Below, in pieces: positions 4,121-60,609 of a DNA stretch of 64,000 nt. The stretch spans positions 124,001-188,000 of the forward strand of contig SCMQ01000005.1 in assembly GCA_005503335.1 (NCBI GenBank). The letters are read 5' to 3'. Under the pieces are notes generated by a model. The model was given only the letters and a program-made list of their open reading frames with translations. It ran no database searches and was not told where the DNA came from. The translations under genes were made by a program, and so were the position numbers. Position 1 is the stretch's first letter; every line of letters begins with the position of its first letter. The stretch is from Comamonadaceae bacterium 2FH (GTDB lineage: Bacteria > Pseudomonadota > Gammaproteobacteria > Burkholderiales > Burkholderiaceae_C).

Positions 4121-5128
4121 TCAGACTACGCAGCCGGCTTCGGCGCCCGGCGCGGCAGGGGTCACTTGGACTGGATCGGGAATCACGTAGCCGTAGCGCA
4201 CCGCAGTCAGCTGAGCGAGGATGCTCACGGCGATCTCCGGCGGTGTGCGGGCACCGTTCTTGATTCCCACCGGTCCGTGCAGCCGTGTGAGCTGCTCGTC
4301 CGTGAGGCCGAAGTGCTCCCCAAGCCGCTGTTTGCGCCTAGCCTGATTCACGCGCGATCCGATCGCCCCGATGTAGAACGCGGGGCCGCGCAGCGCCTCC
4401 ATCAGCGCGAGATCGTCGAGCTTAGGGTCGTGGGTGAGGGCGATGACTGCGGTATGACCGTCGGGCCGCAGCTCCACGACCACGTCGTCGGGCATGCCGC
4501 GCACCAGCCGCGCGCCGTCGATGCAGAAGCCCTCGGCATACTCGTCGCGGGGATCGCAGACGATGACGTCGTAGTCCAGTGCGCGCGCCATCGTCGCGAT
4601 GTACTGGGTCATCTGGCCAGCGCCGATCAGCAGCAGCCGCCAGCACGGCCCGTGCGTCGTGACGAGCGTTGTTTCGGTGAGCTGAAGAACGTCGCCGTCG
4701 CCCGGCGGGGTCAACGTGACTTCGCCCGTCCGTAGGTGCAGCTCGCGTCGCACGAGTTCGCCGCGCGCGAGGCGCTCGACGAGCTCGGACAGCTTGGACT
4801 GCTCGCCCACCGGTTCAAGCACGAGCTCCAGCGTGCCGCCGCAGGGTAGGCCGAAGCGCGTCGCTTCCTCCGCGCCCACGCCGTAGCGCACCACCTCCGG
4901 CTTGGCAAGTCCGAGCGCGCCGTTGCGCACCTTGTCGATCAAGTCGTCCTCGATGCAGCCACCCGAAACCGACCCGACGATCTGGCCATCACCACGCACG
5001 GCCACCACTGAGCCGATCGGCCGTGGCGCCGATCCCCAGGTGCGGGTGACAGTGCCGAGCACAACATGATGGCCGCCTTCTCGCCAGGCGAGGACTTGCT
5101 TGAGAACGCTCAGATCGACGTTGTCCAT
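4121..5128 (-). CDS. XdhC/CoxI family molybdenum cofactor insertion/sulfuration factor
   Basis: The 335-residue protein has an N-terminal XdhC_CoxI domain with TWGSAPRPIGSVVAV and GSVSGGCIEDDLI. After about residue 160 comes a Rossmann-like domain (RLLLIGAGQMTQYIATMA, VIVCDPRDEYAEGF, FYIGAIGSR). XdhC proteins bind the molybdenum cofactor and hand the sulfurated form to xanthine dehydrogenase-family apoenzymes. The gene is last in the cox-like operon, 154 bases after the large-subunit stop, supporting a maturation role for that hydroxylase. It might also be named CoxF/CoxI from its setting. Confidence 0.88.
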   Translation of the reverse strand: MDNVDLSVLKQVLAWREGGHHVVLGTVTRTWGSAPRPIGSVVAVRGDGQIVGSVSGGCIEDDLIDKVRNGALGLAKPEVVRYGVGAEEATRFGLPCGGTLELVLEPVGEQSKLSELVERLARGELVRRELHLRTGEVTLTPPGDGDVLQLTETTLVTTHGPCWRLLLIGAGQMTQYIATMARALDYDVIVCDPRDEYAEGFCIDGARLVRGMPDDVVVELRPDGHTAVIALTHDPKLDDLALMEALRGPAFYIGAIGSRVNQARRKQRLGEHFGLTDEQLTRLHGPVGIKNGARTPPEIAVSILAQLTAVRYGYVIPDPVQVTPAAPGAEAGCVV

Positions 5129-5282
5129 GGATCGCTCTTAGGGCGGCGGGCGCCAGCCGTCGCCGCAGTGTCACTGATTCGAACCGCCTGGCGCCAAGTG
5201 GCGATTTCTCTTTGCCAGCAACTGTGCAGGATGCATGGCACCCATGCACAGTCACATGGCGGGCCCCTTGCCGGCCTCTCCC

Positions 5283-7694
5283 TCAGCGCCCCTGGATCAG
5301 GTTGAGGACGCGTTCCGGAGTCAGCGGCAGGTAGGTTGCACGCTTGGCCCCGAGCGGAGCAAGCGCATCGTCCACCGCGCAGGCAATAGCGGCGGGTGCG
5401 TGCATCCGGCCGCCTTCGCCGCCGCCCTTCATGCCGTAGGGAGTGAAGGGGGAAGGCGTCTCGTGGTGGCCCAGTCGGACCTCCGGCACCTCCATGGCCG
5501 ACGGGATCAGGTAGTCCATCAGCGACGAGCTGACGATCTGCCCATCCTCGTCGTAGACGTACTCCTCCAGCAGCGTTTGGCCCACCCCCTGGGCCAGGCC
5601 GCCGATGACGTGGCCATCGAGCGAGCGCGGGTTCACGACGGTCCCGCAGTCGTGAACGGCCACATAGTCGAGAAACTTGATCGCGCCGGTCTGCACATCC
5701 ACCTCCACCACGGCAATGTGCGCCGCGTGGGCCATCATCGGGTAGAAGACACCAAGATCGCTGCGGTCGGCGGTCGGAAGCGTCGTGTACGGGTGGTCGA
5801 AGACCATGTCCGCCTCGAAGCCGCTGTCGATGTCTGCCGGCAGCTGGTGCTTGAACAGGCGCGGCATGACGGCGATCTGCGCCAGGCTCAACCGTTTGCC
5901 GGCATCGCCTTTGACCTGGACGCCGCCGTTGACAAACTCGAGGTCGTTCTCGCTGATCTCCATCATGTGCGCGGCGACCTTCAGCGCCTTCGCACGGATC
6001 TTTGCGGCCGCCCCTTGCACGGCACCGGAGATCATCACGGTGAACCGGCTGCCGCCCGGGCCGCTGGCCGGCAGCCCCTTGGCCGTTCCCGCGTAGCTGA
6101 AGCTAACGTCATCCGGGTTGACGCCGAGTTCCTCGCCCAGCACCTGCGCCACTACCGTTTCGGGGCTGTTGCCCCAGAATGCGGTCGAATAGAGTGTCAC
6201 CGAAACGGCGCCGAGTGCGTCGACGCTGATCGAGATGCTCTCGGGCACGCTGGTCACGCCCATGGCCGGGCTTCGGCGGAAGAACCACCACTCGTTGGCG
6301 GCGTAGACGCTGCGCTCTTGGCAGGTGACCAGGCCGATCCCGATGTAGCGACCCTGCGCCCTCGCCTTCGTCTGCTCGGCACGCCAGTGGTCCAGCTTGG
6401 CGAGATCAAGCGCCTGCTTCAGGACGCCCTCGTAGTTGCCGGAGTCGTAGACATTCCCACCCGGAATCTTGAAGGGGAATTGCGACGGCTGGATGAAGTT
6501 GCGGCGCCGCAGCTCGATCGGATCGAAGCCGTGTTCCCGCACCGCTTTGTCGACGATGCGTTCAATCGCGAAGTTGTGGACTTCGGAGCCGAAACCTCGA
6601 TAGGCGCCTTGTTGGCACTTGTTGCTGAACACGCCGCGCGCGCGATAGGATACGGCCTTGATGTTGTACGGTCCGATCACCTGCGACATCGCATTGCCGT
6701 GGGTGCCCAGGCCGAACTGGAAGTAGGCGCCATAGTCGTCGATGACGTCGAACCGGATGGCACGGAGCTCGCCTTCTTTTGTCATTGCCAACTCGATCTC
6801 GTACTCGCGCTCGGAGCCGTGATGATCACAACTGACGGCGTGATCGAGCCGGTCCTCCACGTATTTGACGGGCCGGCCGAGAAACTTCGAGCACATGCCG
6901 GCCGTGACGGCCACTCGCACCGCCCAGAACTTCGCACCGAAGCTGCCACCGGCGGGCATTGGGATCAGGTCCAGCTTGTTGCTGGGCACCTTCAGCGTGC
7001 CGGCGACGAGGAACGCGAAGTTGGTGAGCGCTACCGAATTCGAATTGATCGTCAACATCCCCGTGGCCGGGTTGAAGTTGGCTATCGCACCCACTGTCTC
7101 CAGCGGCTGCGCCGACGTGCGGCCCCAGCGTACGGTCTCGCGCACCACGATGTCAGCGCGTGCGAACTCGCCGTCCACGTCGCCGAACGAAAGTGTGCTG
7201 TCCAGCGCCACGTTGGACTCCATCTTTTCGTGGAGCAAGGCTGCGCCGGGCTGCATCGCGGCCCGGGCATTCGGGATTACCGGAAGAGGCTCGTACTCAA
7301 CGTCCACCAGCTCCCGCGCGTCCTCGGCGATGTAGCGGCTCTGCGCCACGACGACCGCGACGCCTTCACCGACGAATCGGACCTTCTCGTCGGCCAGAAC
7401 GCGCCACTTGTGCAGGTTCGGCTCCGGGTTGAAGTCCGGCATGTAATCACAGAGCTCCGCGGCCTGCTTGCCGGTAATCACAGCGACCACACCGTCAAGC
7501 TCCAGTGCGCGCGATGTGTCGATGCTTGTGATGCGGGCGTGTGCCACCGGGCTGCGCACCACGGCGACATGTAGCATGTTCGGCAGGTCGAGGTCGTCGA
7601 CGTAGCCGCCCTGCCCCATGAGGAACTTGCGATCCTCGACCTTCGGAATGGATCGACCGATCCATTGCAGTTGCTTCATGCCTTGCATGGCCAT
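5283..7694 (-). CDS. Molybdopterin-binding large subunit of a xanthine dehydrogenase/CoxL-like hydroxylase
   Basis: At 803 residues this matches CoxL-type subunits. Visible elements are GRSIPKVEDRKFLMGQGGYVDD at the start, the moly-site loop GGSFGAKF (about 249-256), the active-site loop GAYRGFGSE (about 363-371) and the catalytic-Glu motif GGGEGG near the C-terminus. True form I CO dehydrogenases carry AYRCSFR with the copper-binding Cys; this loop has no Cys, so CO oxidation is not supported. It is probably an aldehyde, purine or N-heterocycle hydroxylase, acting on the inner face of the membrane or in the cytosol. The ATG at 7694 overlaps the small-subunit stop as ATGA and is preceded by GAAGGAGA. 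Confidence 0.9.
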   Translation of the reverse strand: MAMQGMKQLQWIGRSIPKVEDRKFLMGQGGYVDDLDLPNMLHVAVVRSPVAHARITSIDTSRALELDGVVAVITGKQAAELCDYMPDFNPEPNLHKWRVLADEKVRFVGEGVAVVVAQSRYIAEDARELVDVEYEPLPVIPNARAAMQPGAALLHEKMESNVALDSTLSFGDVDGEFARADIVVRETVRWGRTSAQPLETVGAIANFNPATGMLTINSNSVALTNFAFLVAGTLKVPSNKLDLIPMPAGGSFGAKFWAVRVAVTAGMCSKFLGRPVKYVEDRLDHAVSCDHHGSEREYEIELAMTKEGELRAIRFDVIDDYGAYFQFGLGTHGNAMSQVIGPYNIKAVSYRARGVFSNKCQQGAYRGFGSEVHNFAIERIVDKAVREHGFDPIELRRRNFIQPSQFPFKIPGGNVYDSGNYEGVLKQALDLAKLDHWRAEQTKARAQGRYIGIGLVTCQERSVYAANEWWFFRRSPAMGVTSVPESISISVDALGAVSVTLYSTAFWGNSPETVVAQVLGEELGVNPDDVSFSYAGTAKGLPASGPGGSRFTVMISGAVQGAAAKIRAKALKVAAHMMEISENDLEFVNGGVQVKGDAGKRLSLAQIAVMPRLFKHQLPADIDSGFEADMVFDHPYTTLPTADRSDLGVFYPMMAHAAHIAVVEVDVQTGAIKFLDYVAVHDCGTVVNPRSLDGHVIGGLAQGVGQTLLEEYVYDEDGQIVSSSLMDYLIPSAMEVPEVRLGHHETPSPFTPYGMKGGGEGGRMHAPAAIACAVDDALAPLGAKRATYLPLTPERVLNLIQGR

Positions 7695-8242
7695 CACCGT
7701 GTCTCCTTCGTTGGGTCGCGCAGTTCCGCGGCCGGGATGCCAGCCGTCGCGGACCATTCCTCACCACGCAGCCTGGCTGCCGCCTCCATCACCGAATCGA
7801 TAATGTGCTGATAGCCCGTGCACCGGCAGAGGTTGCTCGCGATGGCTTCGCGCGCTTCTTCCCGTGTCGGCGTGGGATTCGTCTCCAGGAACTCCGTCAC
7901 CCGCATCAGCATGCCTGGCGTGCAGAAGCCGCACTGAAGACCGTTGCAGCGCCAGAACGCCTCCTGTACCGGATGGAGCTTCGTTCCATCGGCCAGTCCT
8001 TCCACGGTGTCGACGCTACTTCCATCGATCTGCACTGCCAGCGTGATGCAGGAGCGCGCAGACTTGCCATCGATCCGCACGGTGCAGGCGCCGCAAACGC
8101 CATGCTCACAGCCGGCGTGCACGCCGACGAGGCCGAGGTCTCGTCGCAGCACATCGGACAGCAGCGATCGGCTCTCGACACCGACCACCCGCTTCGTGCC
8201 GTTGACGACCAGGGTGATGTTTTGCTTTCCAGATTGGCTCAC
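7694..8242 (-). CDS. [2Fe-2S]-binding small subunit (CoxS-like)
   Basis: The 182-residue protein has the two ferredoxin-like clusters of this family. The plant-type cluster is CEHGVCGACTVRIDG, and the all-helical C-terminal cluster is CGFCTPG with LCRCTGY. It passes electrons from the molybdenum site to the FAD subunit. The start is GTG at 8242, overlapping the FAD-subunit stop as GTGA and preceded by AGGAG; a longer upstream reading frame exists but would run back into that gene. It is slightly longer than the usual ~160 residues, because of an Arg/Glu-rich tail after the second cluster. Confidence 0.9.
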   Translation of the reverse strand: MSQSGKQNITLVVNGTKRVVGVESRSLLSDVLRRDLGLVGVHAGCEHGVCGACTVRIDGKSARSCITLAVQIDGSSVDTVEGLADGTKLHPVQEAFWRCNGLQCGFCTPGMLMRVTEFLETNPTPTREEAREAIASNLCRCTGYQHIIDSVMEAAARLRGEEWSATAGIPAAELRDPTKETR

Positions 8243-9120
8243 TGTCGTTCTCCTGCATTTGCCCGCGCGACCGCGGTGCCGATGACCCGGGCCGCGTAGA
8301 CGCGACCGATGTTCGTACGGTAGGCCGCGGACCCGTGCATGTCCTCGCTGCATTCGACGCCCTCGAGCGCCGCGGCAGCCGCCCGTTCGATGACTTCGGC
8401 CGTCGGGACCTTGCCAAGCAGTGCCTGCTCGGCCATAGAGGCGCGCAGCGGCCGGCTCGCCAGTCCGAAGAGACTCAGCGCCGCCCGGCGGACGGAACCG
8501 TCGGCGTCCAGCTCTATGATGCTCACGGCTCCCGCGATGGCGAAATTCCCGTGCGTCCGGGCGAACTCCGCGATCGCATAGCCCGCCGAGCTCGGGATCG
8601 CTGGAAACTTGACCGCTGTCACCATTTCCGAGGGCCCGACGGCCGTCATGAACGGACCGAAGTAGAACTCGGAAGCCGGGACGTGGCGTTCGCCCAACGG
8701 GCCCGCGATTGTGATCACTGCATCGAGCGCCACAGCAACTGCCGGCAGTTCGGAATGGGGGTCGGCGTGCGCGAGGCTGCCGCAGACCGTGCCGCGATGA
8801 CGGATCGTCTCATGGGCCACAAGTTTGAGCGCCTCCGGCACGAGCGGACAAACGCGCTTGACGACGTCGCTTCCTTCGACTGCGTAGTGGCGCGCCGCGG
8901 CGCCGATCACGACACCGTCGGAGTGCTCCTCCACCCGGTCGAGACCGGGGATGCGCGTGATGTCGATCAGGTGCGTGGGCCGCGCAATTCGCAGGTTCAT
9001 CATCGGAACCAGGCTCTGCCCGCCGGCCAGGATCCGCGCACCTTCGCCGTACTCACTGAGCGCGGCGATGGCGCCCTTGACAGAGTCGGCACGCACGAAT
9101 TCGAATTTGGGTGGCTTCAT
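8239..9120 (-). CDS. FAD-binding medium subunit (CoxM-like)
   Basis: The 293-residue protein shows the FAD-binding motifs of the xanthine dehydrogenase medium subunit: ILAGGQSLVPMMNLRIARP near residue 31 and HETIRHRGTVCGSLAHADPHSELPA near 103-127, then a CO-dehydrogenase flavoprotein C-terminal domain. It takes electrons from the [2Fe-2S] subunit and passes them to an acceptor. It begins 3 bases after the CoxE stop and overlaps the small-subunit start, so the operon is translationally coupled. The order M-S-L matches cox clusters. Confidence 0.9.
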   Translation of the reverse strand: MKPPKFEFVRADSVKGAIAALSEYGEGARILAGGQSLVPMMNLRIARPTHLIDITRIPGLDRVEEHSDGVVIGAAARHYAVEGSDVVKRVCPLVPEALKLVAHETIRHRGTVCGSLAHADPHSELPAVAVALDAVITIAGPLGERHVPASEFYFGPFMTAVGPSEMVTAVKFPAIPSSAGYAIAEFARTHGNFAIAGAVSIIELDADGSVRRAALSLFGLASRPLRASMAEQALLGKVPTAEVIERAAAAALEGVECSEDMHGSAAYRTNIGRVYAARVIGTAVARANAGERQ

Positions 9121-9122
9121 CG

Positions 9123-10508
9123 TCAGCTCCTGCGACGCTGCATCGTCGATGGATGGATAGGCATGTCTTCGCCGCGCCCCGCCGGCGTCCGACTCGAAAA
9201 ATGATCAGCTGTCATGTGTCTCCTCAGTGCAGTGGTTGAATGATCCGGTAGCGCCCCGCGACTCCCCATCCGGGGCGTTGCGGCGCTGATGGCCGCGACG
9301 ACCTCTTCCAAGGCTCGATAGGTATGGCCCGGCACGAAAGTATTCACCCAAGGAAGCGCGGCAGCCATGCCGCCCACCAGGGGGCGATAGCCATCAGCCG
9401 CCATGCGCGGATTTATCCAGACGATGTGGTGGGCCAGTCGCGACAGCTCACGCATGGAGCTTTCGACCAGCCCGACGTTCTGAGTCTCCCAGCCGTCGGA
9501 AACGATCACGATTACCGCGCCGCGTGCCACGCCGCGCCGGCCGTGCTGGTCCACGAAGTCGGCCAGTGCCTGTCCGATCCGCGTGCCACCGGACCAGTCG
9601 GGCGCGCTGTCCAGGGCCCGCCGATAGGCTGCATTAGGATGGTGGGTGCCGAGCACCTTTGTCAAACGGGTGAGTCTCGTGGCGAACACGAAGGCTTCCG
9701 CGTGCAGCGCCTGCACCGCGCCGCGCATCAAGTGCAGGTAGAGTCTCGCAAAGGACTCCATTGATCCTGAAACGTCGGCGATCAAAACCACCCGTCGCGG
9801 ACGCAAGACGCGCTCCTGCCGCACGAGGACCATGGGCTCGCCAGCCGTTCGACAAGATCGCCGGATCGTGGCCCGCACATCGACGTTCCGGCCCTTACGG
9901 CCGCTACGCATGCGCGATGTGCGACGCGGCGGTGGCATCAAGCGAAGCCGCTCGATAGCACTCGCCAGCGTCGCCAGCTCCTCGGGCGTGCAGGCCGCGA
10001 AGTCCTTGACCGCCAGGCGCTCCTCGGCGCTCATCCGGAGAACCGCTCCTGCGCGCTTGCTCTCGCCAGAAAGCTCGCCCGCCGGTTCGCCCGCCGCAGT
10101 ACGCGCTAGGTCCGACGCATCGTCCGCCAAGGCCAGTTGGTCCGGCAGGGACGAGCCGGACGTCGCGTCCCCGGACTCGTACTCTGCCCCCCCATCGTTG
10201 ACGGACTCCTCCGGCATGCCCGGCGTGCCTTCGTCGGGCCGCCGCTCGTCCTTCAGGGCCTGCGCATACGGCGACGCATCCATGAAGCACTGCTGGAAAA
10301 CAGCGTCGTAGGCGGGTACCTGATCGCGTGCTGTCAAGAGGGTCACGCGCCCGATCCAGTAGAGTTGCTCGACGGTCTTGGGCTCGGCAAGACCGATGGC
10401 ATCGGCAAAGCGTGCGCTGCGGTCGGGGTCGACCGGCACCCCGGCAGCATGCAGGCGGTTCCCGAAGGCCCCGACCAGTCGTCCGAACAGATCGTTTTCG
10501 GATCTCAT
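9123..10508 (-). CDS. CoxE-like von Willebrand factor A domain protein
   Basis: From the ATG at 10508, which overlaps the CoxD stop as ATGA, the protein has 461 residues. An N-terminal helical region (RSENDLFGRLVGAFGNRLH) and an acidic linker precede a C-terminal VWA domain whose metal-site motif is DVSGSMESF, with GGTRIGQAL and VIVSDGWE further on. CoxE acts with the CoxD ATPase in maturing the active site of Mo-CO dehydrogenase. The longer open frame up to 10814 is a shadow running through coxD. Keeping coxD/coxE with a non-CO large subunit is noteworthy. Confidence 0.87.
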   Translation of the reverse strand: MRSENDLFGRLVGAFGNRLHAAGVPVDPDRSARFADAIGLAEPKTVEQLYWIGRVTLLTARDQVPAYDAVFQQCFMDASPYAQALKDERRPDEGTPGMPEESVNDGGAEYESGDATSGSSLPDQLALADDASDLARTAAGEPAGELSGESKRAGAVLRMSAEERLAVKDFAACTPEELATLASAIERLRLMPPPRRTSRMRSGRKGRNVDVRATIRRSCRTAGEPMVLVRQERVLRPRRVVLIADVSGSMESFARLYLHLMRGAVQALHAEAFVFATRLTRLTKVLGTHHPNAAYRRALDSAPDWSGGTRIGQALADFVDQHGRRGVARGAVIVIVSDGWETQNVGLVESSMRELSRLAHHIVWINPRMAADGYRPLVGGMAAALPWVNTFVPGHTYRALEEVVAAISAATPRMGSRGALPDHSTTALRRHMTADHFSSRTPAGRGEDMPIHPSTMQRRRS

Positions 10509-11389
10509 CTGCCTGCGATCCATGCGAGGCCACGGCCGCGTGCGACGTCCTGGTCCTCCCGGTACTTCAATACGGAAGCAAGGGTCTGATCGGAGGCCTC
10601 GGCGGTTAGCAGCGAGATTCCGAGAAGCTGCGCGGCACGTGCCCAGTCGATGGCCTCCGCCAAGCCTGGTGGCTTCTGCACGTCCAGCTCGCGCAGCCGC
10701 TGCACGGCAGCCGCGATTTGTGCGGCCAGTGCGGCCGGCGCTTGAGGCACACGGCGCCGAACGATCCTGGTAGTGAGTTCGACGTCGGGGTAGTCGATCC
10801 AGTGATATAGGCATCGGCGCTTGAGCGCGTCATGGAGATCTCGCGTCCGATTCGAGGTGAGGACCACTACCGGAGGGACGGCCGCACGTATGGTGCCCAG
10901 TTCGGGAATAGTGATTGCCGCCTCAGACAGCATCTCGAGGAGGAACGCCTCGAACTCTTCGTCGGCTCGATCGACCTCGTCGACGAGGAGCACGGCCGGC
11001 ATCGGACCCGGATGCTCCAGCGCCTGCAAGAGCGGCCGTCGCAAGAGATACTCGCGCGAAAACAGAGAGTGTCCGTCAAGCGCATCACCACGCGCCTCGG
11101 CAAGCCGGATGTCGAGGAGTTGTCGAGGGTAGTTCCATTCGTAGAGAGCCTGGCTGGCGCTGATGCCTTCGAAGCACTGAAGCCGGATCAACGGAGATCC
11201 CAGCATCGCGGCAAGCGACTTGGCAGCCTGCGTCTTGCCAACGCCCGCTTCGCCCTCCAGCAGCAGCGGCTGAGGCAGCCGAAGGGTACAAAACAGCGCG
11301 ACCGCCAAGCCCCGCGCAGCAAAATAGTCATGCGCCTCCAGCCGCGCGATGAGCTTCTCCACGTCCGGAATGAGTTCAGCGGCGGTCAT
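10505..11389 (-). CDS. CoxD-like MoxR family AAA+ ATPase
   Basis: The 294-residue protein has a Walker A GEAGVGKTQ around residue 45, Walker B VLLVDEVDRAD around 134, sensor-1 VVLTSNRTRDLHDALKRRC, and the MoxR-type lid domain. MoxR ATPases pair with VWA proteins to remodel cofactor-containing enzymes; in cox systems CoxD is required for making the Cu-S-Mo centre. It is directly coupled to the coxE-like gene by a 4-base overlap. The upstream gap to the coxG-like gene is 55 bases, so it belongs to the same transcript. Confidence 0.9.
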   Translation of the reverse strand: MTAAELIPDVEKLIARLEAHDYFAARGLAVALFCTLRLPQPLLLEGEAGVGKTQAAKSLAAMLGSPLIRLQCFEGISASQALYEWNYPRQLLDIRLAEARGDALDGHSLFSREYLLRRPLLQALEHPGPMPAVLLVDEVDRADEEFEAFLLEMLSEAAITIPELGTIRAAVPPVVVLTSNRTRDLHDALKRRCLYHWIDYPDVELTTRIVRRRVPQAPAALAAQIAAAVQRLRELDVQKPPGLAEAIDWARAAQLLGISLLTAEASDQTLASVLKYREDQDVARGRGLAWIAGR

Positions 11390-11444
11390 GCGGATTTCCT
11401 CTCATGCTTGCTATGCCGTGGCTGCGACGCGTGCAACCGGTGGC

Positions 11445-12125
11445 TCAGCGAGTGAACCACCAGACCGCTACCGCGAGGACAGCGACGGCCGCCGACATGA
11501 ATCCCACGCGCTTGAGCACGGGACTCAGGGCGATGGTCGCAAGATCAAGCGGCTCGTTGCTGGATGGCTGCGCTGGTGCCGCACCGGGCCTGGGCGCCGC
11601 GACAGCGGCCATTGCCAGCTCCGGCATCGCCACCGTCGCCGCTGCCGATCCTTGCGCGGCTGGCGAGGCTGCAGCATTGCGCGCGACGATGACTTTCTCC
11701 AGGTTGGCGGCGAACTGCGCGACCAAGTGCTTGGAGACGTCGACCATCAGGCCGCGGCCGAACTGCGCAGCCTTTCCCGTGATGGTGAGGTCGGTCTCGA
11801 GGGTGGCGGTGGTTGAGGCCGGGCCGCTCGGGAGCAGCTGCACGGTGACCAAGGCTTTGGCACCGCCGGCGCCCTGCTTTTCCTTGCCCTTCGCTTCGAT
11901 GACCACGGTGTACGTGGCATCGTCCTTGCGCACGAACGCGCCCTCGCCAGCGTACGTCATCAGAACGGGGCCGAGTTTCACTTTCATGTCGGCAGTGAAC
12001 GAGTCTCCGTCGAAGCCGGTCAGGGTGGCGCCGGGCATGCAGGGCGCGACGGCCTCAAGGTCCAGCAGTGCCCGCCACGCGGTGTCGATGTCCGCGGGGA
12101 CCACGAAGGTGTTGTCGAGTTTCAT
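11445..12125 (-). CDS. CoxG family SRPBCC-domain protein with C-terminal membrane anchor
   Basis: The 226-residue protein has an N-terminal SRPBCC fold characteristic of CoxG: FVVPADIDTAWRALLDLEAVAPCMPGATLTG in pieces at residues 6-36, then a KVKLGPV strand. After about residue 155 an Ala/Pro-rich linker leads to a final hydrophobic helix (VGFMSAAVAVLAVAVWWF) ending in TR, i.e. a tail anchor. CoxG proteins link Mo-hydroxylases to the membrane and its quinone pool. It appears to be the first gene of the operon, so the promoter should lie just above 12125. Confidence 0.85.
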   Translation of the reverse strand: MKLDNTFVVPADIDTAWRALLDLEAVAPCMPGATLTGFDGDSFTADMKVKLGPVLMTYAGEGAFVRKDDATYTVVIEAKGKEKQGAGGAKALVTVQLLPSGPASTTATLETDLTITGKAAQFGRGLMVDVSKHLVAQFAANLEKVIVARNAAASPAAQGSAAATVAMPELAMAAVAAPRPGAAPAQPSSNEPLDLATIALSPVLKRVGFMSAAVAVLAVAVWWFTR

Positions 12126-13172: not shown

Positions 13173-14042
13173 ATGCCTAGCTTCAACGAGCACAACCTCA
13201 CCGAATGCGTGGTTCAACGGTTTGACGGCTGTGAGTCCCCACGGCTGAAACAGTTGATCCAGGCGCTCACGCGTCACCTGCACGCCTTCGTGAAGGAGAC
13301 CGCCCTCAGTCAGGACGAGTGGATGGTGGCCATCGAGTTCCTGACCCGCACGGGTCAGACATGCACGGACCGGCGCCAGGAATTCATCCTGCTCTCAGAT
13401 GTTCTCGGCGTTTCGATGTTGGCCGATGCGATCAACCACCGGATGCCCGAAGGCGCCACTGAGACTACGGTACTCGGCCCCTTCTATCTGGGTGAACACA
13501 GGCTGATGCCAAATGGCGCGGATCTGGCGCCGGCGGCGACAGGGGAGCGGCTGTACATGGCCGGGACGGTCCGCGGCGTTGACGGCCAGCCCCTTGCCGG
13601 GGCCACCATCGATGTCTGGCATGCCGACCGTGACGGTTTTTACGACGCCCAGAAGCCGGAGCTCGGTGGCGCTCCATCCATGCGGGGGCGCTTCCGCACC
13701 GATGCGAAAGGGTGCTTCTCCTTCAGGTCACTGGTGCCGGCGAGCTACCCGATACCGCACGATGGCCCTGTTGGCGACTTGCTCAAAGCCACCGGCCGGC
13801 ATCCCATGCGCCCCGCGCATGTGCATTTCCATGTCAGCGCCCCCGGCCACGAGGCGCTGGTCACGCATGTCTTTTTCAGCGGGGATCCCTGGCTGGAGAG
13901 TGATGCGGTCTTCGGTGTGAAAGACAGCCTGGTCGTAGGCCTCGAGGAGTGCACGCAGTCCACCTATCCGGACGGCACGCCAGCGCCGAGCAGCTGGAAG
14001 CTGCTGGCTTACGACTTCAGGTTGAAGCGCTCGCCTTCCTGA
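13173..14042 (+). CDS. Intradiol ring-cleavage dioxygenase, hydroxyquinol 1,2-dioxygenase type
   Basis: The 289-residue protein has the N-terminal helical dimerisation domain of catechol/hydroxyquinol dioxygenases (residues 1-100) and the beta-sandwich catalytic domain. The Fe(III) ligands can be placed: Tyr157 in DGFYD, Tyr192 in SYPIPHDGP, His216 and His218 in AHVHFH, with spacings of 35, 24 and 2 residues as in the family. With a maleylacetate reductase nearby, the likely reaction is hydroxyquinol to maleylacetate; catechol as substrate is the alternative. The ATG at 13173 follows CGGAG. Cytosolic, NAD-independent. Confidence 0.85.
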   Translation: MPSFNEHNLTECVVQRFDGCESPRLKQLIQALTRHLHAFVKETALSQDEWMVAIEFLTRTGQTCTDRRQEFILLSDVLGVSMLADAINHRMPEGATETTVLGPFYLGEHRLMPNGADLAPAATGERLYMAGTVRGVDGQPLAGATIDVWHADRDGFYDAQKPELGGAPSMRGRFRTDAKGCFSFRSLVPASYPIPHDGPVGDLLKATGRHPMRPAHVHFHVSAPGHEALVTHVFFSGDPWLESDAVFGVKDSLVVGLEECTQSTYPDGTPAPSSWKLLAYDFRLKRSPS

Positions 14043-14147: not shown

Positions 14148-14435
14148 ATGCTGTTCGTCATTCATGCCTTCGACAAGCCGGGCGCCCTTGCCACGCGTCT
14201 GGCCCACTATGACGCCCACAAGGCCTATCTCGCGCAGATGGAAGGCGCGGGTATCAAGACCGTCATGTCCGGCCCGCTCGTCGAAGACGACGGACAAACC
14301 ATGAAAGGGTCCATGTTTCTGGTCGACGTTCCTGACCGTGCCGCCGCTGAATCCTTCCATCGGAACGACCCATTCTTCAAAGCTGGTGTCTGGCAGCCGG
14401 CCATCATCACGGCGTACATCAAGCGGGTGGGATGA
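14148..14435 (+). CDS. YciI family protein
   Basis: The 95-residue protein begins MLFVIHAFDKPGALATR and has the YciI/muconolactone-isomerase-like ferredoxin fold, with conserved His-Asp (AHYDAHKAYL) and a GPLVEDDG turn, ending in WQPAIITAYIKR. It lies 105 bases after the dioxygenase with AGGAGT upstream of its start and is probably co-transcribed. YciI-like proteins recur in aromatic-degradation operons, where lactone isomerisation or dehalogenation has been suggested. No specific reaction can be assigned from sequence. Confidence 0.75.
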   Translation: MLFVIHAFDKPGALATRLAHYDAHKAYLAQMEGAGIKTVMSGPLVEDDGQTMKGSMFLVDVPDRAAAESFHRNDPFFKAGVWQPAIITAYIKRVG

Positions 14436-14460: not shown

Positions 14461-15375
14461 TCACGCCATCCACTTTTTCTCGTAATCCATCTTTCGGAAG
14501 TGATCCAGCAGGAAGTCCATGAACGTCCTGCATTTCGCCGACAGGTACTTTTGGCTTGGGTAGGCGATGTTGATCGTCAGGTCGGGCAGGCTGAATTCAT
14601 CAAGCAGAGGCAGAAGTCGACCGGCCACGAGATCGTCGTAGATGATGTAGCGCGGCTGGACCAGGATGCCATGGCCCGCAAGCGCCGCGGCACGAATGAT
14701 CTGTCCATCGTTTGACACCATTGTCCAGGGGAGGCGAATCACCCGTTCCATTCCATCGCGACGAAAGTGCAGTTCGTCGGGCCGGTTCGACAGCGAGTAC
14801 TGCAGCATCGAGTGCTCATGCAGATCTTCCAGGGTTCTCGGCGTGCCACGCCTGGCCAGGTATTGGGGGGATGCGGCGAGAACACGGCGTGTTGTTGCGA
14901 GCTTGCGGATCGTGATGCTCGAATCCGGCTCGAATTCCCTGGTGCGGATTGCAAGGTCGATGCCGCTCTCGATGAGGTCCACATAGCGATTTGCGGCGAC
15001 GATGTTCACGACCACATCCGGGTACAGTTCGTGATACTTCGGAAGCAGCGGCCCGAGGTGGAGCATCGCGAAACTGAGCGAGGACGTGATTGTCAATTTG
15101 CCCTTCGGCTGCAGGGTGACGCTGTTCACCGCCTTCTCTACTTCCTGCAGTTCGTTGTGCAGGAGTTTGCACCGCTCGAAGAACTGCTGGCCTGCCTCGG
15201 TCACATGCAGATTTCGAGAGTTGCGCTCGATCAACCGGGCGCCCAACCTAGCCTCGAGAGAGGCGAGATGACGCGAGACCGCGGCTTTGGACATGTCCAT
15301 CGCCTCGCCGGCTTTGGAGAGCCCGCGCTTCTCGACGATGTTGAGGAAGAGCTCGATCTCAGTCCAGCGATCCAT
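14461..15375 (-). CDS. LysR family transcriptional regulator of the hydroxyquinol-type cluster
   Basis: The 304-residue protein has a LysR HTH (FLNIVEKRGLSKAGEAMDMS, KAAVSRHLASLEARLGARL) and an effector domain with KLTITSSLSFAMLHLGPLLPK, of the CrgA/DmlR-like subgroup in which LysR proteins regulate a divergent operon. It is convergent with the YciI gene and divergent from the second dioxygenase-like gene with a 92-base gap, so it probably controls the rightward operon, and perhaps the 13.2 kb dioxygenase too. Confidence 0.87.
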   Translation of the reverse strand: MDRWTEIELFLNIVEKRGLSKAGEAMDMSKAAVSRHLASLEARLGARLIERNSRNLHVTEAGQQFFERCKLLHNELQEVEKAVNSVTLQPKGKLTITSSLSFAMLHLGPLLPKYHELYPDVVVNIVAANRYVDLIESGIDLAIRTREFEPDSSITIRKLATTRRVLAASPQYLARRGTPRTLEDLHEHSMLQYSLSNRPDELHFRRDGMERVIRLPWTMVSNDGQIIRAAALAGHGILVQPRYIIYDDLVAGRLLPLLDEFSLPDLTINIAYPSQKYLSAKCRTFMDFLLDHFRKMDYEKKWMA

Positions 15376-15467: not shown

Positions 15468-16376
15468 ATGGTCGAAACAAAGATGCTTGACATTAACGAG
15501 GACAGCATCACTGGCGAAGTGATCGTTCGAAACGCGGGCTGCACCGATGCACGGCTTCGGGAACTGATGCTGGCACTGGTGCAGCACCTCCACGCCTTCG
15601 TGCGGCAAGCCAAGGTCACGACCGCCGAATGGGATGCCACGCTGCTATTCCTTGAAGAGGTCGGCCGCCACTCCGATGCGTCGCGCTCCGAGTTCCGGCT
15701 GTTCTCAGATGCGCTCGGCGTTTCGAGTCTGGTCCACCTGTTGAATGGCAGCAGCGGCGTGCCGACAGCCGGCGTGCGCGACACGCTCCCCATCAATGAG
15801 GCGCGGCAGTGGGTTGAGCTGTGCGACCTCGAAGACACAAAGTGCTTCGTGAGTGGCACGGTCAAAGGCGCAGAGGGCGAGCGGATTCCCGGCGCCGAGT
15901 TGGTCATCCTGCCAGTCGATGCCCGTGGGTTGGTAGGTGTCGCGACACCGAATGTGATGCCGCTCGGGATTGTTCGTTGCGACGCGCATGGGCGTTTCGG
16001 ATTTTGTGTCCCCCCCCCGAAGCCGTTTGCGTTCCCCGCGGACGGGCCGGTTGCACGGATGCTGCGCGCGCTGAACCGCCACGCGTGGCGGGCGGCCCAC
16101 CTTCACTTGCAGATCTGGGCGCAGGGCTACGTTCCACTCGACAGCCGCGTGTTCCGAAGTGACTGCGAGCACCTGTCGAGTGATGCGTCCTTCAGCCTGC
16201 GAAGCCATGAGATCGCGGACTGGACGCTGCATGCCCCGGGAGTTGCGCCGGACGGATCGCGGATGACGCAACCCTTCTACACGCTGGATCGGGACTTCGT
16301 GCTGGTTCGCGCGCCCGCCGCGCGGGCCTCACCCCCTCTTCCGTTTCCGTCCACTTCACAGGAGAAATCCAGTTGA
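15468..16376 (+). CDS. Intradiol dioxygenase-like protein lacking both tyrosine iron ligands
   Basis: The 302-residue protein aligns by eye with the dioxygenase at 13173: LRELMLALVQHLHAFV, FRLFSDALGVSSLVHLLN, VSGTVKGAEGERIPGAEL and RAAHLHLQI all match. The ligand positions differ. Tyr157 is replaced by Val156 (ARGLVG) and Tyr192 by Phe187 (PFAFPADGP), while His211 and His213 are kept. Spacing from the Phe to the histidines is unchanged (24 residues), so no indel explains this. A run of nine C at 16010-16018 encodes the Pro-rich segment before Phe187. It may be inactive, structural, or use a different chemistry. First gene of a tightly packed operon. Confidence 0.8.
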   Translation: MVETKMLDINEDSITGEVIVRNAGCTDARLRELMLALVQHLHAFVRQAKVTTAEWDATLLFLEEVGRHSDASRSEFRLFSDALGVSSLVHLLNGSSGVPTAGVRDTLPINEARQWVELCDLEDTKCFVSGTVKGAEGERIPGAELVILPVDARGLVGVATPNVMPLGIVRCDAHGRFGFCVPPPKPFAFPADGPVARMLRALNRHAWRAAHLHLQIWAQGYVPLDSRVFRSDCEHLSSDASFSLRSHEIADWTLHAPGVAPDGSRMTQPFYTLDRDFVLVRAPAARASPPLPFPSTSQEKSS

Positions 16377-17446
16377 AACACCCGAAAATCGCAATCCTGG
16401 GAACCGGTGCGCAGGGCGCATCCATCGGCGCGGACTTGATCCTCGCCGGGCTCGACGTTACGTTCATCGAGCAGTGGCCCGACCATGTGGAGGCCATGCG
16501 CAGGAACGGTATCACGGTCAATCTTCCCTCGCGGTCCATCCACGCGCGGCCGCGTGCCCTGCATCTGTGCCAGGTGGCTGAGCTGCGCGAGAAGTTCGAT
16601 GTCGTGCTGCTCGTCGTCAAGGCCTACGACACAAAATGGTCGTGCCAGCTCATCGAGCCGTACCTAAAGAAGGATGGATTCGTGGTGGGGGTGCAAAACG
16701 GCATGTCGATCGACGACATCGCCAGCGTCGTGGGTATCGAGCGCACGATCGGCGCCGTGATCGAGATCGCGTCGAATATGTTCGACCCGGGGATCACCAA
16801 TCGCCAGAACGACCACGACACCTCTTGGTTCGCGGTCGGTGGTCTGGTTCCGTCCGCGCAGCGACGCGCGGGTGAGATCGCGGAAATTCTTGGGCACAGC
16901 GGAACGGTAACGATCAGTGAAGACATCCGATCGTCTAAGTGGATGAAGCTGGTGGTGAATGCCGCGGAGCTCGTCCCCTCAGCTATATTGGACTTGCCGT
17001 TGCGAGAAGCCGCGCGTGTGCCCGGCATGCTCGACTTCATGCGTAGAGCGGGCTACGAGGCGATCCGTGCGGCCATTGGCAGCGGAAGTCAGCTGGTCCC
17101 AATCTTCGGTGTCGACTCGGTGGATCCGTCGCGGCCGGAGAAGTTCGTCGATGATCTCTTCGAGGAGGTGCTTCGCACGTTCATGCAGGACAACACCCTC
17201 ACAACGACCTTGCAGGACTGGCGCAAGGGTCGTCGTGGGGAGATCAATGAGGTAAACGGCTACGTCGTGACCCATCTGGCGCGGCTCGGCCACGCGGCCC
17301 CGGTCAATGCGCGAGTCGTGGAGGTTGCACACAGGATCGAACAGGGCGAGCTGCTGGCCGCCCCGTCCAACATCGATCTTCTTCTGGCGAACCTAGGGCC
17401 TGATGACGGCGAGGCCGCGGGCACTTGTGCCCATGACCGGGAGTAA
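16373..17446 (+). CDS. Ketopantoate reductase (PanE/ApbA)-like NAD(P)-dependent oxidoreductase
   Basis: Translation starts at TTG 16373, overlapping the preceding TGA (TTGA), with AGGAG about 9 bases upstream. The 357-residue protein has a Rossmann dinucleotide motif KIAILGTGAQGASIGADLI, VVLLVVKAYDT, VGVQNGMS and a C-terminal helical domain with KWMKLVVNAAELVPSA. At 357 residues it is longer than PanE (about 300). In this cluster it is unlikely to make pantoate; it probably reduces a 2-oxo or 3-oxo acid intermediate. Substrate unknown. Confidence 0.8.
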   Translation: MKHPKIAILGTGAQGASIGADLILAGLDVTFIEQWPDHVEAMRRNGITVNLPSRSIHARPRALHLCQVAELREKFDVVLLVVKAYDTKWSCQLIEPYLKKDGFVVGVQNGMSIDDIASVVGIERTIGAVIEIASNMFDPGITNRQNDHDTSWFAVGGLVPSAQRRAGEIAEILGHSGTVTISEDIRSSKWMKLVVNAAELVPSAILDLPLREAARVPGMLDFMRRAGYEAIRAAIGSGSQLVPIFGVDSVDPSRPEKFVDDLFEEVLRTFMQDNTLTTTLQDWRKGRRGEINEVNGYVVTHLARLGHAAPVNARVVEVAHRIEQGELLAAPSNIDLLLANLGPDDGEAAGTCAHDRE

Positions 17447-17450
17447 AGGG

Positions 17451-18512
17451 ATGAACGAGTTTACGCATGAAATTCTGCCGTCGCGGATTGTGTTCGGCAC
17501 CGGCGCGCTCGGCAAATTGCCGGAGGAAGTCCGGCGCCTGTCCGCGACTCGGGCGCTGCTGTTGTGCACGCCTGAGCAGCAGCGACTCGCCAAGCAGGTC
17601 ACCGATTTGCTGGGGCCGCTCGCGGTCGGCATCTTTGCGGGAGCTGTGATGCATGTGCCAGCGGAGTGCGTCGAGCGCGCGCTCGGCGAAGCCCGCCGGC
17701 ACAGGGCGGATGTCTGCATTGCGGTCGGCGGCGGATCCACCATCGGACTCGCCAAGGCAATGGCACTGGTCGCCGACATCCGCATCATTGCGGTGCCGAC
17801 GACGTACGCGGGCAGCGAGGTCACGCCCATCTACGGCATCACGACGGATGGATTGAAAAAGACCGGGCGCGACGTGCGCGTCCTGCCCCGTACCGTGATC
17901 TACGACCCCGACCTCACGCTGACGCTTCCGGCGGCCATCAGCGTCGCCAGTGGCATGAATGCCATGGCGCATGCCGCCGAGGGTCTGTACGCCAGGGACC
18001 GCAACCCCGTGTGCAGCCTGATGGCCGAGGAGGGCTTGCGTGCGCTGGCCCGGTCCCTGCCCGTGCTGGCCACGAACGGCGCGGATCGGGAGGCACGGGC
18101 GAGTGCCTTGTACGGCGCGTGGTTGTGTGGCAGCGTTCTGGGAAGCGTCGGCATGGCGCTGCACCACAAGCTGTGCCACACGCTGGGCGGAACCTTTAAC
18201 CTGCCGCATGCCGAACTGCATACCGTCATGCTGCCGCATGCGATCGGCTACAACGAGGTCGTCGCCTCGGATGCCGCCGCGCGCATCGCGTCGGCCATCG
18301 GCTCGAGCCGTGCTGGCGCTGGCTTGCAGGATCTCGCCAGGCGGTGCGGCGCCCCACTTGCGTTGAAGGACATCGGGATGAAGGCGGAAGACCTGCCGCG
18401 TGCCGCGGATCTGGCCTGCCAGGATCCGTACTGGAACCCGCGCGCATTTCAGCGTTCGGACGTGTTGGAATTGTTGCAGCGTGCGTTCGACGGCGTACCA
18501 ATCACTGCGTAG
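17451..18512 (+). CDS. Maleylacetate reductase (iron-containing alcohol dehydrogenase family)
   Basis: The 353-residue protein has IVFGTGALGKLPEEV near the start, the nucleotide-binding AVGGGSTIGLAKAMAL, VPTTYAGSEVTPIYGIT and the metal-site region GMNAMAHAAEGLYA followed by HHKLCHTLGGTFNLPHAELH. These are signatures of maleylacetate reductases, which reduce maleylacetate to 3-oxoadipate with NAD(P)H, the step after hydroxyquinol ring cleavage. The ATG at 17451 is preceded by an AAAGGG ribosome site, 4 bases after the previous stop. It is the strongest evidence that the cluster runs via hydroxyquinol. Confidence 0.88.
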   Translation: MNEFTHEILPSRIVFGTGALGKLPEEVRRLSATRALLLCTPEQQRLAKQVTDLLGPLAVGIFAGAVMHVPAECVERALGEARRHRADVCIAVGGGSTIGLAKAMALVADIRIIAVPTTYAGSEVTPIYGITTDGLKKTGRDVRVLPRTVIYDPDLTLTLPAAISVASGMNAMAHAAEGLYARDRNPVCSLMAEEGLRALARSLPVLATNGADREARASALYGAWLCGSVLGSVGMALHHKLCHTLGGTFNLPHAELHTVMLPHAIGYNEVVASDAAARIASAIGSSRAGAGLQDLARRCGAPLALKDIGMKAEDLPRAADLACQDPYWNPRAFQRSDVLELLQRAFDGVPITA

Positions 18513-18519
18513 GAGAACC

Positions 18520-19401
18520 ATGATGAAGATCGCATTCGTGGGAGTTGGAAAGATGGGCCTGCCCATGGCGACGCACTTGCGCTCGGCAGGGCATGCTGTG
18601 GCCGCCTTCGATCCAGGGCCGGCGGCTCAGCAACGGGCTCGGCAAGCCGGCCTGGAGGTGGCCGAGTCATTCGAAGCTGCAGCGGCCGACGCGGAGGTGA
18701 TCGTGTCCTCGTTGTCGAACGACGCGGTGCTGCTCGCGGTGGCGGACCAGATCGCAGCACGCAGCCGTGGCCGTTGTTCGTGGATCGACACCAGCACCGT
18801 GTCGGTCGCCGCGTCGGCCTCGGCCGCCGAGCGCGTGGCCGAGGCAGGGGTGCCGCACCTGCGTGCCACCGTGTCGGGCAACGCATCGATGGCCGAGGCG
18901 GCGCAGTTGACCGTGATGGCTTCCGGGCCGCGTGAGCTCTACGCTGCGCTGCTTCCGCTGCTAGCGTGCTGGGGTCCCCGGCAGTTCTATCTGGGCGATG
19001 CCGAGCAAGCGAGACTCATGAAGCTTGTCATCAACCTGATGATCGCCCATACGACCGCAGCGCTTTCTGAAGCGCTGACGTTGGGTCGAAAGGGCGGCCT
19101 CGAATGGTCCGACCTCTGGGCGGTGATCTCCGAAAGCGCCGTCGCCTCACCGATCGTGAAGGCGAAGGGCAGGCAGCTCGTCGATCGCGACTTCTCGCCC
19201 ACATTCACTGTGGAGCAAATGCGCAAGGATCTGCATCTCATCATGGAGGCCGGCACCCAGCTCGGCGCGCCGCTGCCACTGACATCCCAAGTGGCTGCGC
19301 AGCAGTCCGCCGCCGACGAGGCTGGCTTTGGCGCAGAGGACTACGCCGCTGTGATCAAGCTTGCCGAGCAGGCCGCCGGACTGCCGATCGATCGAACGTA
19401 A
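18520..19401 (+). CDS. NAD-binding beta-hydroxyacid dehydrogenase (3-hydroxyisobutyrate dehydrogenase-like)
   Basis: The 293-residue protein starts KIAFVGVGKMGLPMATHL, a GxGxxG Rossmann motif followed by the family signature, then WIDTSTVSV, a substrate-site VSGNASMAEAAQLTVMASG segment and the catalytic-Lys helix RLMKLVINLMIA. AGGAG precedes a double ATG (18520/18523), so the exact start is uncertain by one codon. The family oxidises beta-hydroxyacids with NAD(P)+. It sits 7 bases after the maleylacetate reductase gene. The substrate is unknown; it and the PanE-like gene are extra relative to a minimal hydroxyquinol pathway. Confidence 0.82.
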   Translation: MMKIAFVGVGKMGLPMATHLRSAGHAVAAFDPGPAAQQRARQAGLEVAESFEAAAADAEVIVSSLSNDAVLLAVADQIAARSRGRCSWIDTSTVSVAASASAAERVAEAGVPHLRATVSGNASMAEAAQLTVMASGPRELYAALLPLLACWGPRQFYLGDAEQARLMKLVINLMIAHTTAALSEALTLGRKGGLEWSDLWAVISESAVASPIVKAKGRQLVDRDFSPTFTVEQMRKDLHLIMEAGTQLGAPLPLTSQVAAQQSAADEAGFGAEDYAAVIKLAEQAAGLPIDRT

Positions 19402-22981: not shown

Positions 22982-24592
22982 ATGACCTCGAAACCGAATT
23001 TCCTCTTCATCACGACCGACCAGCAGCGTGCGGATCATCTGGGCTGCTACGGCAATGCGCAGATCCGAACGCCGCACATCGATTCGTTGGCCAACCGGGG
23101 CCGTCGCTTTGACCGCTTCTACGTTGCCACCGGCGTGTGCATGGCCAACCGCGCCTCTCTCATGACCGGGCGCATGCCATCGCTGCATGGCACCCGGTGC
23201 AACGGCATTCCTTTGGCGCGCAATGCCACGACCTTCGTGGACCTGCTGCGCGACGCCGGCTATTACACCGGCCTGGTGGGCAAGTGCCACCTGCAGAACA
23301 TGACGGACATGCCTCCCGAGGCGCCGCCCGACCCGGTGCCGGCGGGCCTGACGCCGCCGGTGGAAGCGCATGCGGACGCCGTCAAGAACCGCTGGAGCGA
23401 AGGCGGCTACGACATGGAGCTGTTGCGCAAGTGGCGCGACGATCCTGCGCACCGGGTGCAGACGCCGTACTATGGCTTCGACCATGTCGATCTCTGCACC
23501 ATGCACGCAGACATGGTGGAGGGCGACTACGCGCGATGGTTGCACGAGGTGGCGGGTGACATAGACCGACTGCGCGGGCCGAAAAATGCCATTCCCGACG
23601 ATCGCTACACCGCCCCTCAGGCCTACCGGACCCGCGTCCCGGAGCACCAGTATCCCAGCGCCTGGGTCGGCGACCGAGCCGATGATTTCCTGGAGTCGGC
23701 CGCGCGGCGCAAGCAACCCTTCTTCCTTCACTGTTCGTTCGCTGATCCGCACCACCCCTTTACGCCGCCTGGCAAGTACTGGGACATGTACGACCCCAAG
23801 GACATGGTCCTTCCGGCATCGTTCTACCAGAGCGCCGATAGCTCCTTTGCCCCCGTGGCCGCGCTGCACCGGGAACGCGCGCAAGGGCGCGGCCGCATCA
23901 ACTCCACCGTCGGCTTTGCCGCCACGGAGCGCGAGGCCAAGGAGGCGCTGGCGCTGACCTACGGCATGATCAGCATGATCGACGATGTCGTCGGTCGGCT
24001 GATGGCCAAGCTGGCGGCGCTGGGTCTCGACCGCAACACCGTCGTCATCTTCACCAGCGACCATGGCGATTTCATGGGCGACCATGGGCTGCTGCTGAAA
24101 TCGGCCCTGCATTACCAGAGCCTCATTCGAGTGCCGTTCATCTGGGCTGAGCCACCGGGGGCTGCCCTGACTGCAGCGGGACAGTCGACCCACGCGCTCG
24201 CGGGAACGGTCGATATCCCGGCAACCATTCTTGCTCGCGCGCAATTGGCGTCGTTTCATGGCATGCAGGGGCGCAATCTGCTGCCGCTGCTTGCGGGTCA
24301 CGAGGCGGCCGGACGGGATGCGGTGTTGATCGAGGAGGACGGCCACGCGCCGACATTCGGTCTGACGGTGCCCGTGCGTGTACGCACGGTGGTGACCGCC
24401 ACGCACCGCCTGACGCTCTATGACCAGCCCGGCTGGTCCGAGCTGTATGACCTGCGCAGCGACCCGAACGAGTTGGTCAATTTGATCGACGACCCTCGCC
24501 ACGCCAGCGAACGGGCTCACATGTTCGAGCTGCTGGCTCGCGAGCTGATGATGGCCGATGACCGCTCACCGTTTCCGTTGGGGCGGGCCTGA
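22982..24592 (+). CDS. Sulfatase family hydrolase (formylglycine-dependent)
   Basis: The 536-residue protein starts with the metal-site strand PNFLFITTDQQRADHLGCYG and has the active-site motif CMANRASLMTGR, i.e. Cys-x-Ala-x-Arg, in which the Cys is converted to formylglycine. Further metal and sulfate-site motifs are KCHLQNM, HCSFADPHHPF, FTSDHGDFMGDHGLL. There is no signal peptide, so it is cytosolic. The family hydrolyses sulfate esters, and some members phosphonate or phosphate esters. The activating enzyme is not in the window. It is encoded 14 bases after the SDR, in the same operon. Confidence 0.9.
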   Translation: MTSKPNFLFITTDQQRADHLGCYGNAQIRTPHIDSLANRGRRFDRFYVATGVCMANRASLMTGRMPSLHGTRCNGIPLARNATTFVDLLRDAGYYTGLVGKCHLQNMTDMPPEAPPDPVPAGLTPPVEAHADAVKNRWSEGGYDMELLRKWRDDPAHRVQTPYYGFDHVDLCTMHADMVEGDYARWLHEVAGDIDRLRGPKNAIPDDRYTAPQAYRTRVPEHQYPSAWVGDRADDFLESAARRKQPFFLHCSFADPHHPFTPPGKYWDMYDPKDMVLPASFYQSADSSFAPVAALHRERAQGRGRINSTVGFAATEREAKEALALTYGMISMIDDVVGRLMAKLAALGLDRNTVVIFTSDHGDFMGDHGLLLKSALHYQSLIRVPFIWAEPPGAALTAAGQSTHALAGTVDIPATILARAQLASFHGMQGRNLLPLLAGHEAAGRDAVLIEEDGHAPTFGLTVPVRVRTVVTATHRLTLYDQPGWSELYDLRSDPNELVNLIDDPRHASERAHMFELLARELMMADDRSPFPLGRA

Positions 24593-56724: not shown

Positions 56725-59409
<2,685 letters not shown>

Positions 59410-60528: not shown

Positions 60529-60609
60529 GTCAACCTCGGTTGGGGTGGTTTCTGGTTCTGGTTACAAGGCGCCCTCCGGCGGCCCAATCCGCCATTTTCG
60601 CCTTTTTCA

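Follow-up and report, generated by a model that had tools for sequence, protein, structure and literature searches.

The window (the whole stretch of 64,000 nucleotides analysed here) encodes a homologue of hydroxyquinol 1,2-dioxygenase (HQD) that lacks both tyrosine ligands of the catalytic iron and, as judged by alignment, is almost certainly inactive as a ring-cleaving enzyme. We consider it possible, at a probability of roughly 0.4, that this protein is a maintained pseudoenzyme that works by way of its helical N-terminal domain, perhaps within a heteromer that also contains the HQD encoded nearby, its putative partner. This reading is based on the loss of the active site, on a fold that is kept by prediction, on the recurrence of such dead copies in at least two other lineages of soil bacteria, on their linkage to an intact HQD in 12 of 12 cases and on purifying selection in the two groups that allow a measurement.

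An operon gene without its tyrosine ligands

The degenerate gene (Table 1; hereafter the window gene) runs from ATG to TGA and is open over 302 codons with zero internal stops. As the first-pass annotation had described, it is full-length and heads an operon; the operon is tight and includes maleylacetate reductase (MAR). Its stop overlaps the following ApbA/PanE-like gene by 4 bases, and the next two gaps measure 4 bases (to MAR) and 7 bases (from MAR to the 3-hydroxyisobutyrate dehydrogenase-like gene). Both Pfam matches exceed their cut-offs (PF04444 Dioxygenase_N, E 2.1e-21; PF00775 Dioxygenase_C, E 2.4e-11), the solved structures nearest by sequence are HQDs, the coding composition is normal (GC3 0.75) and tblastn of the protein gives a single continuous frame. 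Identity amounts to 40-47% with the nearest intact relatives and 33% with the linked intact HQD.

Table 1. Genes and residues around the degenerate HQD homologue, in positions of the window
Feature	Position	Strand	Basis
Intact hydroxyquinol 1,2-dioxygenase, linked paralogue, 33% identical to the window gene product	13173..14042	+	Pfam, alignment
YciI-like small protein, 3' of the intact dioxygenase	14148..14435	+	Translation; family by sequence resemblance
LysR-type regulator, divergent from the window gene	14461..15375	-	Domain match
Window gene: degenerate HQD homologue, 302 aa, operon gene 1	15468..16376	+	ORF, Pfam, alignment, model
N-terminal helical domain (dimerisation/lipid-binding type), residues 27-93	15546..15746	+	Pfam PF04444, five model helices
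Codons 105-107 DTL, site of the lost GPF pocket motif	15780..15788	+	Alignment
Catalytic beta-sandwich domain, residues 124-256	15837..16235	+	Pfam PF00775, model
Codon 156 Val, first Tyr-ligand position	15933..15935	+	Alignment
Codon 166 Leu, position of an Arg found in 117/118 relatives	15963..15965	+	Alignment
Codon 187 Phe, second Tyr-ligand position	16026..16028	+	Alignment
Codons 211-213 HLH, both His ligands retained	16098..16106	+	Alignment
Codon 227 Arg, position of the active-site His/Gln	16146..16148	+	Alignment
ApbA/PanE-like reductase, TTG start, 4-base overlap with the stop of the window gene	16373..17446	+	Domain match, translation
Maleylacetate reductase (MAR), iron-containing alcohol dehydrogenase family	17451..18512	+	Domain match, translation
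3-hydroxyisobutyrate dehydrogenase-like protein, end of the tight run	18520..19401	+	Domain match, translation

An alignment of the window protein, the intact HQD encoded at 13173-14042 and about 117 relatives (118 other intradiol sequences) agreed with the initial observation of Val156 and Phe187 at the tyrosine positions together with retained His211 and His213, the residue-by-residue assignment of Val156 being approximate because it lies in a low-confidence loop of the structure model (residues 152-162). Both tyrosine columns hold Tyr in 116 of the 118 other sequences, and the two exceptions, L084 and L100, are themselves further dead copies. The spacing, first described as unchanged, is indeed so from the second tyrosine position to the histidines (24 residues) but not between the two tyrosine positions, where 4 residues are lost (the interval is 31 residues, whereas the local intact HQD has 35 and L004 has 37). 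The possibility of other tyrosines at the metal was also looked at: only Tyr221 and one near residue 271 remain, neither at a ligand position, and since intact relatives also have Tyr at both columns a substitute ligand is excluded.

Trp148, Asp157, Gln159 and the GPF loop are lost as well, Arg166 is replaced by Leu and His227 by Arg, so that, of the 75 columns with at least 95% invariance among intact relatives, 26 are altered in the window protein. These changes are unevenly distributed, with 23 of 27-28 invariant columns kept in the N-domain versus 26-27 of 48-50 in the C-domain (boundary at residue 93; Fisher p 0.015). In intradiol chemistry, Fe(III)-tyrosinate catalysis is excluded for a protein without both Tyr ligands; with both gone and no other tyrosine usable, such catalysis is almost certainly impossible for the window protein, as had been proposed.

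In its AlphaFold model (pLDDT 77.8) the window protein is predicted to form five N-terminal helices and a beta-sandwich, with the HQD 1tmx as the best solved match (Z 18.6, 220 residues, rmsd 4.2). The pLDDT falls below 50 at residues 97-109 and 152-162, which are the sites of the lost GPF and first-Tyr loops. A dead copy from Pseudomonas (L084) was modelled at pLDDT 87; because the input alignments are dominated by intact relatives, these models indicate compatibility with the HQD fold rather than proof of it. A run of nine C at window positions 16010-16018 lies in frame just 5' of the second Tyr position and is a possible slippage site.

Dead relatives in other genomes

An alignment-based scan of about 85,000 genomes returned 80 relatives, among them two full-length copies without both tyrosines, from Pseudomonas sp. 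GM79 (L084) and from the MAG RUBRI1 (L100). Searches within the two genera added seven dead copies from 298 Pseudomonas genomes (L128, L129, L130, L131, L135, L137 and L140) and two from the 81 genomes of the genus of L100, which is that of G788 (L197 and L199). Besides the window gene there are thus 11 dead HQDs, eight in Pseudomonas and three in the genus of the proteobacterial MAG, all of them full-length and lacking both tyrosines. The homologue search proposed by the first-pass annotation therefore did yield dead homologues adjoining MAR genes, and these are not the obvious pseudogenes that it had thought might turn up. Closer to the window gene, an exact-peptide scan of genome contigs with the window protein alone gave zero relatives, and no close orthologue was found, the genus of the window's genome being represented by that single genome; a search of 400 genomes of the family gave one relative at E < 1e-60, which is intact. 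All ligands are intact in the homologues from plasmids (L005-L010 and L161-L165).

Ten columns are lost alike in the window protein, L100 and the dead copies of Pseudomonas; among them are both Tyr, Gly105, Phe107, Asp157, Gln159 and His227. In each of the three groups the near-invariant columns are kept more often in the N-domain than in the C-domain (Fisher p 0.015, 0.002 and 0.013, respectively). The histidines vary: the second is Glu, Gln or Lys in all eight Pseudomonas dead copies and Asn in L199, both are gone in L100, and both are kept only in the window protein and L197. At the column of Asp81 of the window protein (the conserved Asp of the LLSD motif), most Pseudomonas dead copies have His (L084, L128, L129, L130, L135, L137 and L140) and L131 keeps Asp, a change specific to this clade.

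The Pseudomonas dead copies form one clade (support 100/100) beside intact Pseudomonas copies, and L100, L197 and L199 form a separate one (99/99) with the intact L046 next to it. That all dead copies go back to a single origin was marginally rejected (AU p 0.043 with all ten rows; p 0.017 for L100 plus the Pseudomonas clade). The position of the window gene shifts with sampling because of its very long branch, with an AU p of 0.177 for joining the L100 clade and support of 76/62 for a grouping with the Pseudomonas dead clade. A grouping with L100 seen in the first trees vanished under better sampling, and we treated it as long-branch attraction.

Linkage to an intact dioxygenase, and selection

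An intact HQD lies within 7 kb of all 12 dead copies. Among the intact relatives whose flanks are long enough (about 68), one, L087, has such a neighbour. The Fisher p of 2e-13 for this contrast is only nominal, since flanks vary in length and the 12 dead copies stand for three independent lineages at most. The distance is 1.4 kb in the window, about 5 kb for L100 and L197 and about 7 kb for L199. All eight Pseudomonas loci have the arrangement intact HQD, MFS, (porin), LysR / dead HQD, MAR, one of them (L151) being the sole Pseudomonas locus where the contig ends before MAR can be seen whole; at the loci of intact Pseudomonas sisters, no second HQD was found nearby. Furthermore, the intact partner type (85-100% identical to L124) and the dead copy occur in exactly the same eight of the 298 Pseudomonas genomes, which is partly explained by the inheritance of one cluster. 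Between the three groups, the intact partners share 40-46% identity and represent three HQD types, indicating that the pairing of a dead with an intact HQD was made more than once. Each linked intact HQD is 32-43% identical to its dead copy.

For the intact members of the HQD clade to which the window gene belongs, a neighbouring LysR gene and MAR are the ordinary setting. The LysR regulator of the window is about 54% identical to the one placed likewise beside the Pseudomonas dead copies, and its MAR about 51-61% identical to that of related clusters. The ApbA insertion looks private, since this neighbour, used as synteny bait in 400 genomes, matched the window's own copy alone at E < 1e-60. 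Two other loci may be mentioned here. In L087, a Polaromonas MAG, two HQDs of different types lie within about 4 kb and both are apparently intact, which is possibly the state preceding the loss of one copy. At about 8917-10839 of the Pseudomonas locus L157 (G874), an in-frame stop breaks an intact-type HQD, and MAR is split into three fragments; this is true decay, in contrast to the conserved dead copies.

Both dead clades, that of Pseudomonas and that of the L100 genus, are under purifying selection. In the Pseudomonas dead clade the ML omega is 0.153 (NG86 dN/dS 0.20) and a model with omega = 1 is worse by 338 lnL, and in the clade of L100, L197 and L199 omega is about 0.15 and omega = 1 is worse by 71 lnL; with dS near saturation these values are approximate, and they describe selection after the loss only if the loss predates each clade, as the shared lost residues and the clade support indicate. 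The intact partner, MAR and LysR of the same Pseudomonas genomes have omega values of about 0.07, 0.04 and 0.04, and amino acid identity among the dead copies is 62% versus 88-92% for these neighbours. In the Pseudomonas dead copies, constraint on the N-terminal domain is near-normal (NG86 dN/dS 0.125, versus 0.117 for the intact partner genes), whereas it is relaxed in the active-site segment (0.320 versus 0.050). An ML grid by segment was flatter, at 0.10, 0.15 and 0.15, and omega = 1 was rejected for every segment of the Pseudomonas dead clade. The window gene resembles the dead clades in full length, coding composition, loss pattern and setting and would be under the same selection; in a neutral-decay simulation with substitutions alone, its frame stayed open at 70% identity with P about 0.1, a value that by itself does not prove selection on this gene. 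The earlier suggestion of selection for something other than normal catalysis is borne out in the independent dead relatives, at omega about 0.15, and may extend to the window gene by resemblance.

Possible roles of the dead copies

The dead copies probably have a role outside catalysis, for instance as partners of the working enzyme. We propose that the window gene may descend from the HQD of a LysR / HQD / MAR operon, the catalytic job of which would have been taken over by the second, distantly related HQD encoded 1.4 kb away, and that the displaced protein would have retained its fold, above all the N-terminal helical domain. Through this domain it could act as a non-catalytic partner, in the simplest form by making heteromers with the linked working HQD, which it might stabilise, localise, tune or tether to MAR. 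A partner role of this kind is favoured by the shared N-terminal helical domain and outer fold and by precedents in the family. Among the three roles first put forward (a two-His metal site, a ring-binding scaffold and a heteromeric partner), our comparison is best compatible with the last. Against a heteromer, the linked HQD is 33% identical to the window protein, which is less favourable than close isozymes would be; furthermore, the retained N-domain fits a homodimeric dead protein equally well, and the window gene is a singleton on a very long branch. We are more doubtful of a general version, according to which hydroxyquinol pathways at least twice, perhaps three times, made a displaced HQD the obligate non-catalytic subunit of a newly acquired one, giving hetero-oligomeric intradiol dioxygenases with one dead subunit.

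The main rival to the partner reading is a homomeric role, in which the dead HQD would work alone as a homodimer, either as a scaffold or regulator for MAR or LysR or as a lipid-binding protein. We regard it as rather unlikely. The constraint on the N-domain suits homodimerisation as well as heterodimerisation, and in the window, as in all Pseudomonas loci with enough sequence, the dead gene has kept its place between LysR and MAR. However, a homodimer does not explain why, in all groups, an intact HQD is tightly linked to the dead copy and strictly co-occurs with it, and a MAR gene was absent from about 5 kb around L100 and from 10 kb around the L213 copy. Slow decay of a gene made redundant by the arrival of a second HQD is in our view unlikely; its frame would have stayed open either by chance or through the polar effect that a stop would have on MAR. 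In favour of decay, displacement would account for the linkage, the dead copies have evolved several times as fast as the neighbouring genes (see the identities given above), and the window gene has its long branch and lacks a close orthologue. A frame kept open for polarity alone is expected to have an omega near 1, which is strongly rejected in both dead clades (omega about 0.15); moreover, 12 of 12 dead copies are full-length, the window gene retains a normal coding composition with its GC3 of 0.75, and the truly decaying G874 locus, with its stop and fragmented MAR, looks different. Pure decay of the dead copies is thus disfavoured by the omega values, an argument that we weigh less firmly for the window gene itself.

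A third idea, that the window protein was neofunctionalised as a two-His metalloprotein or came to bind an intermediate of the pathway in its former pocket, appears improbable. The HxH motif is kept in the window protein and in L197, along with Arg208 and the DGPV motif, but the other dead relatives lose the second histidine or both, which makes a two-His metal site unlikely as a shared function. Nor is the retention of both histidines in the window protein remarkable, because 26 of 48 conserved C-domain columns survive, and at this retention (54%) both histidines would be kept by chance in about 3 of 10 cases. The pocket-forming loops (97-109 and 152-162) are lost or predicted to be disordered, which also weakens the ring-binding scaffold. 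A sequencing or assembly artefact, for example around the nine-C run at 16010-16018, is very improbable: this homopolymer does lie next to the second Tyr position, but conserved sequence continues in one frame on either side of it, tblastn found zero alternative-frame matches of any strength, and independent dead homologues exist in other genomes. A frameshift or artefact as the cause of the degenerate gene was accordingly rejected on the single continuous tblastn frame.

The partner reading can be set beside several known systems, as pseudoenzymes and dead intradiol subunits are already-known kinds. Compared with HQDs proper (PF04444 plus PF00775; PDB 1tmx, 3n9t), the window protein has the same two-domain fold and length, the same LysR / MAR setting and both His ligands, but it lacks both Tyr ligands, the GPF pocket loop, Arg166 and His227, and the Fe(III) site cannot form. 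A precedent in the family is PcaG, the alpha subunit of protocatechuate 3,4-dioxygenase: this intradiol homologue has no functional metal site and is paired with a working homologue. The window protein differs from it in carrying the N-terminal helical domain, the dead copies having arisen separately inside the HQD family, and it gave no match to the alpha-subunit model TIGR02423 at E 0.001. In catechol 1,2-dioxygenases, the subunits dimerise through a lipid-containing helical zipper to which each contributes five N-terminal helices, and the alpha and beta subunits of the Pseudomonas arvilla C-1 enzyme form both homo- and heterodimers (PMC7287156). There too, a single strain has a pair of intradiol subunits of the dimeric type with a helical zipper, but those subunits are described as isozymes, whereas one gene of the window pair lacks an active site and the two products are about a third identical. 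Dead paralogues that activate a live partner are known from the AdoMetDC prozyme (PMC5201418) and deoxyhypusine synthase (PMC3663545); as with the window gene, a dead paralogue is kept beside a live one, but those are other enzymes, from trypanosomatids, and an interaction within the window pair would be a putative one.

Among open-licence papers, we found nothing relevant on inactive intradiol dioxygenases, and no description in that literature of a recurrent, selected dead HQD paralogue linked to different working HQDs. The recurrence in a similar genetic setting with three working partners makes the fate of an enzyme after takeover of its reaction testable. On a practical level, the annotation 'intradiol ring-cleavage dioxygenase' beside MAR may not mean a ring-cleaving enzyme, and misannotated dead HQDs matter for the genome-based prediction of degradation pathways.

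Several other genes of the window are worth recording. A molybdenum-hydroxylase cluster (CO dehydrogenase/xanthine dehydrogenase-like) with XdhC, CoxG and a CoxD-like AAA ATPase, at 4124-12125 on the minus strand, adjoins the hydroxyquinol genes and may feed the pathway. A sulfatase-like gene at 22982-24592 on the plus strand, named by sequence appearance, lies 3' of co-oriented aldehyde dehydrogenase and SDR genes and may hint at a sulfated upstream substrate. Finally, a PIN-like protein is encoded beside an Xre-type HTH protein (51690-53230, minus strand), both also named by sequence appearance; the pair lies near gyrB/dnaN/dnaA-like genes (56728-62022) and resembles a small insertion near a replication origin.
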